Position numbers and translations under genes: made by a program. Shown one piece after another: positions 53,972-64,000 of a stretch of DNA of 64,000 nucleotides (position 1 is its first letter; every line of letters starts with the position of its first letter). The stretch spans positions 248,001-312,000 of the forward strand of contig PASN01000014.1 of the NCBI GenBank assembly GCA_002711995.1. Direction: 5' to 3'. This stretch comes from Halobacteriovoraceae bacterium. GTDB taxonomy: Bacteria > Bdellovibrionota > Bacteriovoracia > Bacteriovoracales > Bacteriovoracaceae. Below the pieces are notes generated by a model. That model did no database searches. It saw only the letters and a list, made by a program, of their open reading frames with translations, and was not told where the DNA came from.

Positions 53972-54478
53972 TTAAAGTCCTAAGTCAGCAAGAAGAGCGT
54001 CGATAGACTCTTGCTTATTATTTGGCTCATCTTCTTGAATGGAGACGGAGGCCCTCTCTACGTGAGAGAACTTTTCTTGCAGCCACTTTAATCTATCTGC
54101 AAAAGCTTCTAGATTTATGCCATCGACTTTTTCTTCTCCATCCTTTTCGATGTTTTCAAGAAGGGAGTTAAGAATGTCCAGAGTGTCAAAAAGAACGGCT
54201 GTTACAATTTCTAAAAGCTTCATGTCATCAGTTTGGCTGGCCTTGTAACTAACAATTTTTCCAAGCTCACAAAAGTTACCCGTCTTGGTGGCGTCTATAC
54301 TTTTTGCCGCGCCCATGATTCTGTCTATGATTTGACCGAACTGTTCTAGAAGAGCGATTTTGCCGGGATTCTCTTCGTACTCGTCGAGAATCTCCTCTAA
54401 TTGTTGGCACAATTCGTTGGACTCTTCACAAAAGCCATCAACGATTTCTTTCATTTCAGGATCTTTTAACATGCTCAT
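53972..54478 (-). CDS. Degenerate HPt-like protein with CheZ-type C-terminal tail
   Basis: A 168-residue all-helical cytosolic protein. The first 80 residues resemble an HPt domain, but where the motif FRxxHxLKGS should lie it reads IIDRIMGAAKSIDATK, with no phospho-accepting His. The last 13 residues, KQESIDALLADLGL, closely match the C-terminal CheY-binding peptide of CheZ (QDQVDDLLDSLGF). It is the gene downstream of cheY, with a 4-bp overlap, so the two are co-translated. It may bind phospho-CheY and either dephosphorylate it or hold it (inference). It is not a CheZ itself by sequence. Confidence 0.7.
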   Translation of the reverse strand: MSMLKDPEMKEIVDGFCEESNELCQQLEEILDEYEENPGKIALLEQFGQIIDRIMGAAKSIDATKTGNFCELGKIVSYKASQTDDMKLLEIVTAVLFDTLDILNSLLENIEKDGEEKVDGINLEAFADRLKWLQEKFSHVERASVSIQEDEPNNKQESIDALLADLGL

Positions 54479-56572: not shown

Positions 56573-58498
56573 ATGGAAGATTTTGAACAAGAATTAAAGA
56601 TGGACTTTCTTGAAGAGGCCGAAGACCTTCTTACCGCCGCTGAGAGTGCTTTCCTTAGGCTTGAGGAAGACAGAGAAGACTCTGAGCTTCTTAATGAGAT
56701 TTTTAGAGTTGCCCATAATTTAAAGGGAACTTCAAAGGCCGTTGGTTTTGATCAAATGGCCCAACTTACTCACATTGCAGAAAACCTTATCCTTAAATTG
56801 AAGGAAGGGGAGCTCGAAGTTTCAGATGCAATTGTGTCAGGGCTCCTTGAATTTAAGGATAAAGTTGAGTCCATGATCTCAGGCCTTCAAGATGATCTGA
56901 ATGCTGAGTTTGAAACTGCTGATGTTATTCAAAAACTTGAAAGTCTAACAAACGGCGAAGGCGAAAGTGAAGGAGCCGAAGTTGCAGAAGAGACTGAGAC
57001 TTTTGAGGAAGAAGCATTTGACGAAGAACCTGTTTTAGCTGATGAAGTTCCTGATGCTGCGATGTTTGATGAAGCGCCTGGTGATGTGGAAGTTAATGAC
57101 GCTGCACTTGAGTCGCTTAGAGAGTTGGGATTTGATACTGATGAGTTTGACGCCGCTCCTGTTGAAGCGAGCAAAGATGAGGCGCTAAGTTTTGAAAATG
57201 TCGAAAAGCTTCCGGAAGTTAAACAGGAAGCAGCTCCGGAAGAAGTTCAAAGGCCTACAGCTGAAAAGGCAGAAAAGAAAGAAGTAAAAAAAGAAAGCGG
57301 TCAAAAGGACGAGAGTATTCGAGTGAATCTTTCTCGTATTGACAACATTAATAACATTATTGGAGAGCTTGTAATTCTTCAAACTGTTTTGTCTCAAAGA
57401 AGATATGTAAACATCAAAGACGAGCTTTCAAATAAGAGCATCTCTATGATGAGCAAGCTATTTAAAGAGGTGCAGGAAGTTGCCATGTCATTGAGAATGT
57501 TGCCGCTTAAAGGCGCATTCCAAAAGATGAATAGAATTGTTAGAGATACTTCCAAGGCCTTAGGCAAAGATACAAAACTTATTATGGTGGGTGAGGAAAC
57601 TGAGGTTGATAAAACAGTCCTTGAAAGAATTTCTGATCCATTGGTTCATATCGTTAGAAACGCTGTTGATCATGGGCTTGAATCCAATGAGGAAAGGGCG
57701 GCAAAAGGGAAAGGCAAAGGTGAAATTCACCTAAAGGCCTTTCACGAAGGCAGCAACCTTGCCATTGAAGTTATAGACAACGGTGGTGGCATTGACCATG
57801 AAGTTATTAAGGCAAAGGCGATTGAAAAGAAAATTATAACTCCGTCTTCAACACTGGCGCCAAATGAAATAATACAACTTATTTTTCACCCAGGCTTCTC
57901 AACTAAAGAACAGGTTACTGAAGTATCTGGCAGAGGCGTGGGCATGGATGTTGTAAAAACCAACATTGAAGCACTTGGTGGACAGGTTAAAGTTACTAGT
58001 AAAATAGGTGAAGGCTCAACATTTAAGATCCTTATTCCCCTTACTCTTGCGATTATTGAGGGACTTGTTATCACTGCTGATAAAGAAAAGTTTGTTATTC
58101 CTCTTTCTCAGGTCCACGAACTTACGCAAGTTCACGAGTCCGACATTGAAAAGTTCACTGGTTCAGCTGAACTTTTCAAACTAAGAGGTGAGGTTATGCC
58201 ACTATTCCATATCAATAAGAAACTTGGTGCCAAGGTCACTGAGCGAAAAAGCAATATCGTTGTAGTAGTAAAAGGTCTTGGACGTTCATTTGGAGTTGCT
58301 GTGGATGACGTTCTAATTCAGCAACAGATTGTAATTAAGAAATTGGGTGAAGATCTTAAAGGCAAGCAAGGAATTATGGGCTCTGCCATTATGAGCGACG
58401 GCATGCCTTCACTAATTGTTGATTTATTTGAACTATTTAAAAATGATCTAAGCGCAAGCAAAGCGCACAAAGATTTTAAAGAGGCCCAAGCGGCGTAA
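56573..58498 (+). CDS. cheA: Chemotaxis histidine kinase CheA
   Basis: A 641-residue CheA. The HPt domain has the phospho-acceptor His48 in IFRVAHNLKGTSKAVGF. An acidic linker of about 110 residues (130-240) stands where the CheY-binding P2 domain normally lies. The dimerisation helices start DESIRVNLSRIDNINNIIGE. The ATPase has N-box IVRNAVDHGLES, G1 DNGGGID and G2 GRGVGMDVV. A CheW-like domain ends the protein. It starts the forward chemotaxis operon, 17 bp before cheW. The lack of P2 means CheY must be recruited directly by HPt or by other parts. Confidence 0.95.
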   Translation: MEDFEQELKMDFLEEAEDLLTAAESAFLRLEEDREDSELLNEIFRVAHNLKGTSKAVGFDQMAQLTHIAENLILKLKEGELEVSDAIVSGLLEFKDKVESMISGLQDDLNAEFETADVIQKLESLTNGEGESEGAEVAEETETFEEEAFDEEPVLADEVPDAAMFDEAPGDVEVNDAALESLRELGFDTDEFDAAPVEASKDEALSFENVEKLPEVKQEAAPEEVQRPTAEKAEKKEVKKESGQKDESIRVNLSRIDNINNIIGELVILQTVLSQRRYVNIKDELSNKSISMMSKLFKEVQEVAMSLRMLPLKGAFQKMNRIVRDTSKALGKDTKLIMVGEETEVDKTVLERISDPLVHIVRNAVDHGLESNEERAAKGKGKGEIHLKAFHEGSNLAIEVIDNGGGIDHEVIKAKAIEKKIITPSSTLAPNEIIQLIFHPGFSTKEQVTEVSGRGVGMDVVKTNIEALGGQVKVTSKIGEGSTFKILIPLTLAIIEGLVITADKEKFVIPLSQVHELTQVHESDIEKFTGSAELFKLRGEVMPLFHINKKLGAKVTERKSNIVVVVKGLGRSFGVAVDDVLIQQQIVIKKLGEDLKGKQGIMGSAIMSDGMPSLIVDLFELFKNDLSASKAHKDFKEAQAA

Positions 58499-58515: not shown

Positions 58516-59001
58516 ATGAGTTTTGAAGACAAGATAGATAATGAAGTAGAGAAGTCTCAAAGGTATTTACAGTTTGACTTGGGCAGTGAAAGTTACGCAA
58601 TCGCATTGTTGAATGTTAAAGAAGTTATTCCCGTTCCGGAGACAACTCCTTTGCCAAACGCCCCAAGTTATTACATAGGAATTATGAACTTGAGGGGACA
58701 AATCATTTCCATCGTGGATTTAAGAAAAAGACTTAAAATTAACAAAAAAGAGGATGCGGAAGAGGCAGTTATCATAGTTGATTTTGCAGGGGTTTCAATT
58801 GGGCTGGTTGTGGATTCGATCAACTACGTTTTAAACGTCGCCACAAGTGAAATCACTGAAGTTCCGGAAATAAGGTCTCAAGTGAACGCACAATATGTTC
58901 AAGGTGTTCACAGGGGCGAGGAAAAGCTTACGATCATGCTTGATTTGGCGAAAGCTTTAAATATATCTGAAATCACAGGGCTGCAAAAAAACGCGGCCTA
59001 A
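58516..59001 (+). CDS. cheW: Chemotaxis coupling protein CheW
   Basis: A 161-residue adaptor linking receptors to CheA. CheW motifs are YLQFDLGSESYAIALLNVKE, IPVPETTPLPNAPSYYIGIM and NLRGQIISIVDLRKRL near residue 75. GLVVDSINYVLNV and the terminal helix also fit. It lies 17 bp after cheA, and cheR follows 24 bp later. Confidence 0.95.
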   Translation: MSFEDKIDNEVEKSQRYLQFDLGSESYAIALLNVKEVIPVPETTPLPNAPSYYIGIMNLRGQIISIVDLRKRLKINKKEDAEEAVIIVDFAGVSIGLVVDSINYVLNVATSEITEVPEIRSQVNAQYVQGVHRGEEKLTIMLDLAKALNISEITGLQKNAA

Positions 59002-59025: not shown

Positions 59026-60867
59026 ATGAGCATGCCTTTGAATAAGGCCGGTAAGACTTGGTCAATCGAGTCTCTGGCCAATTACGTCTCTGAGATCGTG
59101 GCCAAGGATAGTGGAAATATACTGGGGGATAAACAGCAGTCGATGGTTGTCTCCCGCCTTAGGAAAAGGCTACTTGATTTAGGTGGCATTACTGCCAACG
59201 AGTACGCTGCATACCTTGATAAAAATTACCAAAGAGAAACAAGTTATTTGATTTCTCTTTTAACCACTCACCACACTTTTTTCTTTAGAGAGTTTTCCCA
59301 CTTTGACTTTGTGTTGGAAAACTTGGACAAACTGGTCGAGAGTGTTAAAAGGCGCGGGGATAATAAGATTAGAGTCCTGTCAGCTGCTTGTAGCAAAGGG
59401 CAGGAGGTTTACTCTCTTGCAATGTTTTTTAATTTGCACCTAAAGAAGTATCCAGGAATCGACTTTGAAATCCTCGGAACGGATATCGATCCCGAATGCG
59501 TAAAAATTGGGAATAACGGTGTTTATCAATACCAGGAAGTAAAGTCTGTGCCAAGGGTCTACCTTCAAGGCAATTGGCAAAGAGGCACGGGAAAGATTGC
59601 AAATTTTGTGAAGGTAAAACCACACCTAAAAGAAAGGTGCAAATTTGATGTTATGAACTTAATGTCAGTTACAAAAGCTCTTGGCACAAAGAAGTTTGAT
59701 CTTGTTATGTGTCGAAATGTATTTATTTATTTCAAAAAAGAAGACATCAGAAAGATCGTCAAAGACTTTCAACAACATGTTTATAAAGGTGGCTACTTCA
59801 TAACTGGTCTTAGTGAGTCCATTAAAGAGTTGCAGGTGACCAAACAAAATCTGGCACCTAGTGTGTATAGCTTTGATGAACCGGCCGTTGTTGTGGACAA
59901 GAAAACTGCAGCGCCAAAGAAGGCAGCGCCAGTTGCAAGAACTACCTCTAAACCTTCAGCGCCAAAACCTGTTCGCATGCTTGTCGTTGACGATAGTGCA
60001 AGTGTTGTGAAACTACTAAGCAAGGTGTTCCAGAGCGATCCCGACTTTGAACTGGTTGGGACTGCCACCAACGGTTTGGAAGCTGCTGAGTTTTTGAAAA
60101 ACAACAAGGTTGACGCAATGACTTTGGATATTCATATGCCTGAAATGGATGGTGTGGAGTATCTGAAAAAGCATCATGGGGTCAACCATCCAAAAGTAGT
60201 TGTAGTTTCAAGCGCAAGTAGGGAAGACACTAGGTATGCTCAACAAACGCTTCGCTATGGAGCAAGTGACTTTGTTGAAAAACCTGCTTTGAACAATTTA
60301 AAAGAAAGAGCTGAGGAAATTAAGAACAAGATTAAAATGTCCTTTCTTAATGATGTCTCAGTGGTTGACACAATTGATAAGAGTTTCCAGAAAGATTTTC
60401 AGATTAAAGACCTTGATAAGAAAGCTAGGCTTTTATTCGGAAGCTTCAGCGATATAAAAAAGATCAAGGCCAGTATTACAGAGCTTGAAGGTGACCAGCC
60501 ACCAGTAGTTGTCGTTTTTGAGGGAAATGGCAACTATATGGATATGATCAAGGACGAACTTGGTTCGAGGGTTGGAGCTCAAGTATTTGAGAACGGAATT
60601 AAACTAGAAAAAAATAAAGTCTACATCTGTGATTATTCTTCACAAATCAAAGACCTTCTTTCACAATGTTCTGGAAGAAGAGTAAGTAGCAGTGTTTTCG
60701 GAATTTGCAGCTCAAAGGTTGTCGACTCTCTCATTGGATTGGAGAACGCTCAAATTCTTCTAGAAGACTTGCCTGGCATAAACGCAGATCTTAAAGAGGT
60801 TGCAAGTGACGTTTTTCCGTGGACAAGTTTCCCTCACGTTGGCACGGAGTACTTAGCAAAAGACTAA
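59026..60867 (+). CDS. cheR: CheR methyltransferase-receiver-pseudoCheB fusion
   Basis: A 613-residue fusion. Residues 1-280 are CheR: an N-terminal helical domain (SYLISLLTTHHTFFFREFSH), the SAM-binding motif VLSAACSKGQEVYSLAMFF and the CRNVFIYF motif. After a Lys/Ala/Pro linker comes a receiver domain (about residues 318-440; MLVVDDSASV, acceptor Asp in TLDIHMPEMDG, Lys in FVEKPA). The last 150 residues align with the CheB methylesterase domain by pattern (QPPVVVVFEGNGNYMDMIKD against CheB PPIVIVQHIP...), but lack the Ser-His-Asp triad: no GSSTGG, no QHIP and no GMGKDG. It should methylate receptor glutamates; the tail looks inactive. It lies 24 bp after cheW. Confidence 0.88.
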   Translation: MSMPLNKAGKTWSIESLANYVSEIVAKDSGNILGDKQQSMVVSRLRKRLLDLGGITANEYAAYLDKNYQRETSYLISLLTTHHTFFFREFSHFDFVLENLDKLVESVKRRGDNKIRVLSAACSKGQEVYSLAMFFNLHLKKYPGIDFEILGTDIDPECVKIGNNGVYQYQEVKSVPRVYLQGNWQRGTGKIANFVKVKPHLKERCKFDVMNLMSVTKALGTKKFDLVMCRNVFIYFKKEDIRKIVKDFQQHVYKGGYFITGLSESIKELQVTKQNLAPSVYSFDEPAVVVDKKTAAPKKAAPVARTTSKPSAPKPVRMLVVDDSASVVKLLSKVFQSDPDFELVGTATNGLEAAEFLKNNKVDAMTLDIHMPEMDGVEYLKKHHGVNHPKVVVVSSASREDTRYAQQTLRYGASDFVEKPALNNLKERAEEIKNKIKMSFLNDVSVVDTIDKSFQKDFQIKDLDKKARLLFGSFSDIKKIKASITELEGDQPPVVVVFEGNGNYMDMIKDELGSRVGAQVFENGIKLEKNKVYICDYSSQIKDLLSQCSGRRVSSSVFGICSSKVVDSLIGLENAQILLEDLPGINADLKEVASDVFPWTSFPHVGTEYLAKD

Positions 60868-60870
60868 AAG

Positions 60871-62259
60871 ATGAGTATAAAAAAACTTTCCGGCAATTCC
60901 TCCAAAGAAGTAAAAATTTCCCTCGATCAAACATCGGGGGTTGTTTTAATGCTTCTTGAAAATAATAAGAGAGAGTGCTTCTTGCTTAGAGGTCCATCTC
61001 TTGAGGAGTGTCAAAAACTTTCAGAAATTAAAGATGTGAAAAGTGCTAGGTATGTTGGATCATCAGCATGCATTAATCTTTTGAAAGACTTGGATGTTCC
61101 ATGGGTGAACTTTGAAAGGGAAGTTGTTGATAATGGGCCAGGGACTGTTGTCTACTGCCCTAGTTCTGTAAAAGTTAAGATAAAAAAAATTACACCTACA
61201 CACTCTAAAACTGAAAAAACAAATGGGGTTGTTAAGAAAAAGAAGGTTTTAATAATTGATGATAGCTCCACAATCCAAAAGCTTTTAACTAAGATAATCA
61301 ATTCCTCTGACTTCTTGGAGGTTGCAGGTGTGGCCGACAGGCCTAGCATGGCCAAGGAGTTTATTGAAAATGAGGCCCCTGACTTAATTACTCTAGACAT
61401 TCACATGCCGGAAATGAACGGCGTTGAATTTTTAAAACAATATCTAGGAGATAAGAACCTGCCCGTAGTGGTTGTAAGCTCTGTAAGTGTGGCCGAAGGT
61501 CCTCTTGTTATGGAGGCATTGGCAAATGGAGCTCTCTCCTATGTTCAAAAGCCTTCTTTGGATAAAGCAAACACCCTGGCCGGGGACATTCTTAATCAAC
61601 TTGAGGCAATAGCCAGTAAAAACACTTCCGGCACAAAGGCACAGGCCAGTTCGGTGGTGATGCAGGATTTTAAATCAATTGATGGGCTCGTTGCCATCGG
61701 ATCATCCACCGGAGGAACTTCGGCGCTACAGCAGATCTTAACGAGTCTTCCCTCTAGGATTCCACCTATTGTGATTGTTCAACACATACCAGCGGTCTTT
61801 TCCAAAGCTTTGGCGGAGCGCTTGGACAGTTTGTGTCCCTTCACTGTTAAAGAAGCTGAGGATGGTGACAAAATCACTCAAAATACAGTTTATATCGCAC
61901 CAGGCGGATTCCAAATGAAAGTGGCCAAGCATGGTGCTATTAAAAAGATCATTCTTACAGATGACCCTCCAGTAAATAGGTTTAAACCTTCAGTGGATTA
62001 TTTGTTTGATTCAATTCCTTCTTTAAAAGAGAAAAATGTCGTTGCCTCGATTCTTACTGGAATGGGCAAGGATGGAGCTAAAGGTATGCTAAAGCTTAAA
62101 GAGCAAGGGTATGAAACGCTTGCTCAAGATGAGGAGTCTTGTGTTGTCTTTGGCATGCCTAGAGAGGCCTTAAAGATAGGGGCTGCAAACCTTGCCGTTC
62201 CACTGACCGATATGTCTAAAGTTATAGTTCAAAAGATGAACAAATCTTCACAAAGTTAA
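60871..62259 (+). CDS. cheB: Chemotaxis methylesterase CheB with extra N-terminal domain
   Basis: A 462-residue CheB, about 110 residues longer than usual. Those first 110 residues form an extra domain (VSSxVxV-type strands, then VKSARYVGSSACINLLKD) that loosely recalls the C-terminal half of CheD. The receiver follows (VLIIDDSSTIQK near residue 125, acceptor Asp in TLDIHMPEMNG, Lys in VQKPS). The catalytic domain has the full triad: Ser in AIGSSTGGTSA near residue 275, His in VQHIPAVFS, Asp in GMGKDGAKGM. It demethylates and deamidates receptors and is activated by phosphorylation. It follows cheR by 3 bp. Confidence 0.93.
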   Translation: MSIKKLSGNSSKEVKISLDQTSGVVLMLLENNKRECFLLRGPSLEECQKLSEIKDVKSARYVGSSACINLLKDLDVPWVNFEREVVDNGPGTVVYCPSSVKVKIKKITPTHSKTEKTNGVVKKKKVLIIDDSSTIQKLLTKIINSSDFLEVAGVADRPSMAKEFIENEAPDLITLDIHMPEMNGVEFLKQYLGDKNLPVVVVSSVSVAEGPLVMEALANGALSYVQKPSLDKANTLAGDILNQLEAIASKNTSGTKAQASSVVMQDFKSIDGLVAIGSSTGGTSALQQILTSLPSRIPPIVIVQHIPAVFSKALAERLDSLCPFTVKEAEDGDKITQNTVYIAPGGFQMKVAKHGAIKKIILTDDPPVNRFKPSVDYLFDSIPSLKEKNVVASILTGMGKDGAKGMLKLKEQGYETLAQDEESCVVFGMPREALKIGAANLAVPLTDMSKVIVQKMNKSSQS

Positions 62260-62421: not shown

Positions 62422-64000
62422 ATGAAGTTTAATTTGTCATTAAAACAAAAATTGCTACTGTCAAATATTGGGCTGATCGTTGTGTTTGGGTTAATTTTAC
62501 TATTTCAGTTCAACAACGCTTTATCTCAACAAAAAGTTGAAATCCGTAATGGTTTTAACAACTCCTCCAGTAAATTGTCTGGCAACCTAAGCCAGAATTT
62601 TTATAAGTTTTATCATAATGTTCAGGCCATTAGTAAAAATGAGTCCCTTAAAGGTGAGGATAAACAAAAGATCTCATTCTTTCTGAACGAGCTAGTAAGT
62701 CTTTATCCAAACTATGATTTTATGGTGCTTACAGACCTTGAGGGAAATTACAAGAGTTCAAGTTTTCTATCACCCACTGGTGATAAGCTAGCTGTTTCAA
62801 ACCTTGAAGGTAAAAACTTCAGTGGGACTGAGTGGTTTAAGGCCACTAAAGATGGAGATCTAACAGAGGACTATGAAAAGAAAATTTACGGTTCACATTT
62901 TTCCGAAATTAAAGACAGTGAAATAGGAAAGCTGCTCTATGGAGAGTCCAAAAAAGGCTTCTACGTAACCACTCCTGTTCAGGATGAGTTCGGAGACTCC
63001 TTGGCCATCCTAACAACCTTTGTTGGGGTTCGCGCAATCAATGAAAGTGTCGCTGAACTTGAGGCCTCTTTAAAAGAAGAAGGAAAGGAAGGAGCTCTTA
63101 TACGGGTTATGGGAGCTAACAAACTAATTTCCTCCAATCAAGAGTCAGAAAAAACTCTCACGCCAAGATCAAGTCTTAAATTTGAAGAGGATGACGACAA
63201 GAAAAATGAAGGCTTTGAGCTTCCATGGGCCAAGTCTCGTCCGTTGGTTGCAGTGGAGAAAATTAATGACAAAAGGTTTTTAAAAGAGCTTGATTGGGAA
63301 GTATACGTTGAAATGGACTCAACAGAAGCATTTCAAGGCATTAACGCATCTAAAAACTTCTTTGGCGTAAGCTTTATAATCAGTTTAATTCTATCCGCCA
63401 TTGTTGCGTTCTTCATGAGTAGGGCCCTGTCTAATAGAATGAGCAAGGCTGCTGAAAGCGTTTCGAGCGGTTCTGATGAAATCAATGAAGCAAGTGGCGA
63501 GATTAGCGATCAGGCCAAGCTTCTTTCAGAGTCTACAAACCAACAGGCATCAAGTCTACACGAGACAGTTTCGTCTCTAAACGAGATTTCTGCAATGGTT
63601 AGCAAGAGTGCTTCACACTCACAAAGTTCAAAAGAGATGTCATCAAGAAGTAGAGAGTCTGCCAATGAAGGCATGAAAACAGTTGAACAAATGCTGGAAG
63701 CGATTGATGAAATTGCTTCTGCCAACTCTGAAATTGTTGAGCAGCTAAACACCAACTCAAAAGAGATGCAAGAAATCACAAACGTAATCAAAGAGATTGA
63801 AGATAAAACAAAAGTTATCAACGATATCGTTTTTCAAACAAAGCTTCTTTCATTCAACGCAAGTGTTGAGGCAGCAAGGGCGGGTGAGCACGGTAAAGGG
63901 TTTGCGGTTGTTGCAGAGGAAGTGGGAACCCTTGCAAAGAGCTCAGGTGACGCAGCGACAGAGATTGAAGACATGCTCGCCAAATCAATTGAAAGTGTTA
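62422..64000 (+). CDS. Methyl-accepting chemotaxis protein, 3' end outside window
   Basis: The frame opens at ATG 62422 and is still open at the window edge, giving at least 526 residues. It has an N-terminal transmembrane helix ([15 protein letters not shown]), a periplasmic Cache-type sensor (about residues 40-300; [17 protein letters not shown], then [15 protein letters not shown]), a second membrane helix ([20 protein letters not shown]), and a cytoplasmic helical bundle. The tip motif is [20 protein letters not shown], where the common consensus has ALNASIEAARAGE. The last residues are beyond the window, so the methylation region on the return helix and any CheR-tether are not seen. The ligand is unknown. 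It belongs to the che operon (162 bp after cheB). Confidence 0.92.

Follow-up and report, generated by a model that had tools for sequence, protein, structure and literature searches.

A chemotaxis methyltransferase joined to a receiver and a degenerate CheB domain in a largely predatory bacterial group

In the standard scheme of sensory adaptation, phosphorylation by the kinase CheA acts on CheB only, and CheR is unregulated. Why, then, does a chemotaxis gene cluster encode a CheR methyltransferase that carries a receiver and a CheB-like domain of its own? The question is raised by the open reading frame at 59026-60867 (+) of the window, the 64,000-nucleotide stretch of a Halobacteriovoraceae contig analysed here. 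This frame encodes a protein of 613 aa with, in order, a CheR methyltransferase domain (residues 22-274; 59089..59847, +), a CheB-type receiver domain (residues 315-439; 59968..60342, +), a linker (residues 440-465; 60343..60420, +) and a C-terminal domain, here called X (about residues 466-613; 60421..60864, +). A methyltransferase, a receiver and a C-terminal domain had been claimed for this frame from the letters alone, and the ORF call and the Pfam matches to CheR and Response_reg bear this out. The CheR profile PF01739 matched residues 83-274 (E = 2e-43, 148.5 bits against a curated cut-off of 27), and the SAM-binding and catalytic residues R88, E127, D153, R230, N231 and Y235 were kept in all 52 homologs. 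The CheR part also has an RGTG-type stretch in its loop, resembling the RGRG of an ordinary CheR at another locus (L093). We propose, as part of our best explanation, that the 613-aa protein is the probable working receptor methyltransferase of the local chemotaxis system.

The genes are arranged in the order cheA-cheW-cheR/X-cheB-mcp, and the intervals that separate the che genes are 17, 24 and 3 bases long. The CheA kinase (56573..58498, +) and CheW (58516..59001, +) precede the fusion, a true CheB (60871-62259) follows it, and then comes a chemoreceptor gene (62422..63999, +) that continues beyond the window and whose C-terminus, taken from the genome, ends in DDHEWEDL. CheX, an HD-domain gene and CheY lie directly upstream of this cluster. 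Beside cheY, a 168-aa ORF (53972-54478, −) without a Pfam match may be an unrecognised chemotaxis component. In the window's own genome we found two CheR domains and two CheB domains, and the fusion is the sole non-hybrid CheR. Its one remaining CheR and its one further CheB are both in a 1329-aa hybrid of the CheB-CheR-PAS-histidine-kinase type (L228:6631-10620, contig C4).

The receiver was matched by Response_reg PF00072 at residues 319-428 (E = 3e-21, 76 bits against a cut-off of 30.2), and its top curated match was the CheB model NF001965, with 101.6 bits over residues 315-439. The acidic pair D322/D323, the predicted phospho-acceptor D368 (codon at 60127..60129, +) and K419 are present in 52 of 52 members, and judging by these residues the receiver looks phosphorylatable. 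In a tree whose deep forks are weak, the receivers of all 52 X-bearing proteins fell on a single branch (support 100/93), apart from the receivers of the neighbouring CheB proteins.

The identity of X was less evident, since the window domain alone matched nothing in Pfam, including PF01339 (CheB) at its curated cut-off, and the best of 25 family members reached only E = 0.0047 with PF01339, below that cut-off. Profile-profile comparison gave a clearer result. With hhalign, 29 X sequences matched the neighbouring CheB sequences with a probability of 90% over 73 columns, and 52 X sequences matched a wider CheB set with 94.4% over 122 columns. As negative controls, CheD, the receiver, CheR and the CheB N-terminal domain each scored below 1% against the 29 sequences, and five other profiles scored 0.2-3% against the 52. 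In addition, a profile built from X only, when run on 369 Bdellovibrionota genomes, also recovered true CheB domains (E about 1e-7 to 9e-4), the aligned part lying in every case at about positions 11-113 of the query; these domains included the CheD-REC-CheB proteins of one genus and cheB genes adjoining X. An X profile also picked CheB proteins of other phyla among the ORFs at loci from a contig scan with the full-length alignment, a scan that was swamped by ordinary CheR and receiver matches and held a sole true full-length relative (L091). An AlphaFold model of X, built from a two-sequence alignment, had a mean pLDDT of 58.7, with most of domain residues 31-110 above 70 and low confidence over domain residues 142-174. 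With this model, Foldseek placed CheB 1chd first (E = 5.5e-4, probability 1.00) and 6ymz second and third, and VIA-align ranked CheB entries 1-4 (Z 11.0, 10.4, 10.2 and 9.8) ahead of the next unrelated chain at 8.8, a modest margin because the fold is of a common alpha/beta type. A sequence profile of X against the PDB found 1chd at rank 14 (E = 0.46) in the correct register, which is too weak to count alone. CheB came first in the hhalign comparison and in both structure comparisons. Taken together, the profile-profile matches, the recovery of CheBs by the X profile and the fold matches agree that X is a degenerate CheB methylesterase domain, its CheB ancestry being well beyond chance.

We then turn to the catalytic residues, for which we take the triad to be Ser164, His190 and Asp286 in Salmonella CheB numbering. 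In the profile register, LLFGSFSD of the window lies opposite AIGSSTGG, and VVVVFEGN lies opposite VIVQHIPA. The Ser164 position is thereby Ser473 in the window (codon at 60442..60444, +); across the family, 18 of 52 members have Ser there, and the STGG around it (GASTGG) is lost. The His190 position is Glu499 (60520..60522, +), with Glu in 34 of 52 members and His in one. The TGMGxDG of CheB is replaced by an FGICSSK-like stretch, and Asp is found at the Asp286 position in at most a few of the 52, in a region where the alignment may slip by one residue. X is also shorter than the CheB domain by about 30 residues, and the RPSVD segment is missing. The sequence-only reading had stated that Ser, His and Asp were all lost; this stands for His and Asp, whereas a Ser is still at its position in the window, though in only 18 of 52 across the family. 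Since neither the CheB-type triad nor STGG is conserved in X, a CheB-type hydrolase activity is not expected. The profiles, the fold and the residue tallies support that reading's broader view, in which a CheB became joined to CheR and later lost its activity.

What is conserved in X lies elsewhere. The most conserved stretch is the C-terminal DVFPWTSF (D-x-x-P-x-T-S-F; residues 595-602; 60808..60831, +), in which P598 is kept in 51 and S601 in 52 of 52 members, and E580/D581, P598, T600 and S601 are all near-invariant. These residues could point to a new catalytic activity of X, built for example around Glu499, Glu580/Asp581 or Ser601. We regard such an activity as very improbable: only 34 of 52 members have Glu499, and a pocket around these residues cannot be judged because the model has low confidence over domain residues 142-174.

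The loss of the CheB catalytic residues would also be expected if X were a functionless relic of an earlier bifunctional CheR-REC-CheB, inert but tolerated, and the rate at which X changes fits this as well, with a mean pairwise distance of 1.92 versus 0.6-0.8 for CheR or the receivers. In close pairs, dN was 0.08-0.24 for X versus 0.05-0.125 for CheR. However, the dN/dS (omega) of X in close pairs was about 0.035-0.054 where dS could be estimated, a rough value with synonymous sites near saturation, and this low omega argues that X is maintained under strong purifying selection. X is also widely kept. In a search of 143 relatives it was found in 29 genomes, the window's own included; the CheR-REC-X layout held in 29 of 29 full proteins, and a CheB gene adjoins most of them, a few lying at a contig end or having the neighbouring gene unresolved. 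Of the 369 Bdellovibrionota genomes, 120 match the X profile; by our reading, about 100 of these carry X and about 20 match only through a true CheB. With this retention in about 100 of the 369 genomes of the phylum and an invariant C-terminal motif, an inert remnant appears improbable.

Outside this group, the X profile was run on 690 genomes from three other phyla. It matched none of the 193 genomes from the phylum that includes Anaeromyxobacter and none of the 299 from the phylum to which a gammaproteobacterium belongs; among the 198 from the phylum of a Desulfobacterales MAG, there was one weak match (E = 5.5e-4), to a 221-aa frame. The CheR-REC-X fusion was not found in these 690 genomes. 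Searches of viral contigs with the X alignment and with single X sequences gave no match. The group in which the fusion occurs is mostly predatory. Because all 52 X receivers share one branch (100/93), CheR-REC-X has a single old origin. We also considered X as a recent duplicate of the adjacent CheB. This is unsupported, since in a tree with weak deep forks the receivers of the X proteins have a branch of their own, to which those of the adjacent CheBs do not belong.

Among the relatives, some depart from the window's arrangement. At one locus (L209:6278-9817), a single 1179-aa ORF joins CheR-REC-X to REC-CheB, in one genome and possibly through an assembly error; this fusion suggests that CheR/X and CheB are able to act as one unit. 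Other open frames of 1099-1129 aa had also looked like fusions, and the four that were checked proved to be pairs of genes that share a reading frame but are separated by a stop codon, so that L209 is the only true one-ORF fusion. At five loci (L207, L208, L224, L225 and L214), X is reduced to about 120-140 aa and only its C-terminal motif is recognisable, which suggests for L207, L208, L224 and L225 that most of the X fold is dispensable there. At L214, the neighbouring CheB is without its N-terminal domain and one receptor is without a tail.

The neighbouring CheB was examined in the same way. Its ORF (60871-62259, 462 aa) starts three bases downstream of the 613-aa ORF and matched CheB_methylest (E = 7e-61) and Response_reg; the receiver and catalytic domain (61237..62259, +) have intact triad motifs (GSSTGG, VQH and TGMGKDG), which confirms the earlier statement that a true CheB is the next gene. 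Its N-terminal domain (residues 1-106; 60871..61188, +) matched nothing in Pfam and so did not reach the curated cut-off of PF03975 (CheD). With hhalign, this domain matched CheD with 82.8% over 113 columns, compared to 0.3-1.4% for the controls, and its AlphaFold model (pLDDT 44) was uninformative and gave no usable fold. It evolves 2-3 times faster than the rest of the neighbouring CheB, and no CheD match was found in the window's own genome. In three relatives of the same family (L229, L230 and L231), an unfused CheR of 290-294 aa lies beside a CheD-REC-CheB whose CheD is matched by the Pfam profile, and the CheB part of these proteins clusters with the CheB of the window (support 89). The N-terminal domain of the neighbouring CheB is therefore likely, from these alignments, to be a degenerate CheD. 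Both this domain and the conservation of X across the family had been missed by the sequence-only reading.

The receptors next to X offer a possible target. In X clusters (L032-L226, L236, L237 and L239), their C-termini share a conserved peptide, in most cases [IV]P[SD]xxDxRFED[VIL], and a looser pattern fits 28 of the 31 listed ORFs, the window's own receptor being cut by the window end. An exact DNA pattern for the tail D-x-[RKS]-F-E-D-[IMLV]-stop occurred in 13 of 20 X-bearing genomes and in none of 20 that lack X. By its letters, the peptide resembles a tether of the NWETF type. We do not take the tail as a sign of binding to X, since receptors beside an unfused CheR have the similar tails EWEKL or AWEKL and the loci L207, L208 and L224, with shrunken X, keep the tail. 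The CheB of E. coli opens when it is phosphorylated, and a receptor-tail site in its receiver/linker region becomes exposed (PMC8609364). Given this site, the conserved receptor peptides here and the RGTG-type CheR loop, a docking role for the 613-aa protein at the receptor tail would be plausible by analogy.

Our best explanation, to which we give a probability of about 0.55, is that the protein combines CheR with a CheB-like response regulator whose enzyme domain is a pseudoenzyme, and that the receiver, phosphorylated by CheA, and X serve CheR as a switch or as a docking module. CheA would phosphorylate Asp368; upon phosphorylation, the receiver and the pseudo-CheB would alter their mutual packing, by analogy with CheB; and the altered packing would gate either the activity of CheR or the way in which CheR docks to the receptor, perhaps at the C-terminal peptide of the latter. 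The same CheA would activate the adjacent true CheB. If active CheA were to switch CheR on, the feedback would be positive, and therefore the opposite control of the two enzymes that had been suggested earlier predicts that phosphorylation inhibits CheR; negative feedback would need phosphorylation to restrain CheR. We count in favour of this explanation the practically invariant residues of CheR and of the phospho-site, the selection on X, the CheB fold without its triad, the CheB type and single branch of the receiver, the place of the fusion as the sole non-hybrid CheR, the che cluster and the L209 fusion, and against it the shrinkage of X to about 130 aa at L207, L208, L224 and L225.

Pairwise distances between the domains bear on the same point, in a test that removes shared ancestry only partly. 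The distances of the two receivers, that of the 613-aa protein and that of CheB, correlated when the other domains were controlled (partial r = 0.43, p = 0.001, the strongest correlation among 15 pairs), which fits a shared kinase CheA without proving it. In contrast, the correlation between the receiver and X was not significant (0.09, p = 0.155), which we count against the switch reading, and neither was that between the pseudo-CheB and the CheD-like domain (0.13, p = 0.057). X could instead be a structural scaffold or a domain for docking to the receptor or CheB, with the receiver independent of it, as a phosphate sink or localisation domain, and without control of CheR activity. The near-invariance of D-x-x-P-x-T-S-F alone, while the remaining X drifts or shrinks, would be in keeping with this, and the one-ORF fusion with CheB at L209 suggests a complex. 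We consider it unlikely nonetheless, since the phospho-site is absolutely kept and is joined to X by a CheB-like linker in 52 of 52 members, and since among close relatives conserved residues are distributed through X. Returning to control by the receiver, an extended form of the best explanation can be offered tentatively, and with some doubt: CheA would control CheR through the receiver and the pseudo-CheB, so that both adaptation enzymes are phospho-regulated, and the pseudo-CheB on CheR and the pseudo-CheD on CheB would hold the pair in one adaptation complex.

Taken singly, the parts of this architecture are all familiar, as are fusions of CheR and hybrids of CheB with CheR. The 613-aa protein shares with CheB (PF01339; structures 1chd/1a2o, 3sft and 6ymz) a CheB-type receiver, a linker and the catalytic-domain fold in the same order, and differs from it in that X is without the conserved His and Asp and without STGG, is about 30 residues short, and belongs to a unit that is joined as a whole to CheR. 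Hybrids of the CheB-CheR(-PAS) type, L228 among them, also have the adaptation pair on one chain, but in the order CheB-CheR with no receiver between, whereas the window's fusion is CheR-REC-CheB-like and its CheB part is dead. A 624-aa CheR-REC-CheB of the same phylum (L204:8479-10353, −) has the same domain order as the fusion but differs in its intact CheB (GASTGG, VQH and TGMGxDG) and in its distant CheR and divergent receiver, and on account of the latter two it is probably an independent fusion; its genome also has the pseudo-CheB version (L203). The relatives L229, L230 and L231 belong to the same family and have a related CheB, but have an unfused CheR and a CheD that Pfam recognises. 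In CheR-TPR fusions, which are mostly in clusters for alternative cellular functions, CheR also has an added regulatory domain, with TPR where the window's fusion has the receiver and pseudo-CheB (PMC3447774). CheV, a CheW-receiver fusion, is likewise a chemotaxis component under a receiver (PMC12691637), but it is an adaptor whereas the fusion is a methyltransferase. No report of the CheR-receiver-pseudo-CheB architecture was found in the literature searched, which leaves out most subscription journals.

Chemotaxis is thought to be important for predation in Bdellovibrionota (PMC8067016). The comparisons presented here suggest that in this group the two sides of sensory adaptation may both be under the direct control of the kinase CheA. 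The 613-aa fusion is a natural and testable case of a pseudoenzyme sitting on its own antagonist, and a CheR with its own CheB-type receiver and a dead CheB, if these control it, would be a feedback design for sensory adaptation unlike the standard scheme.
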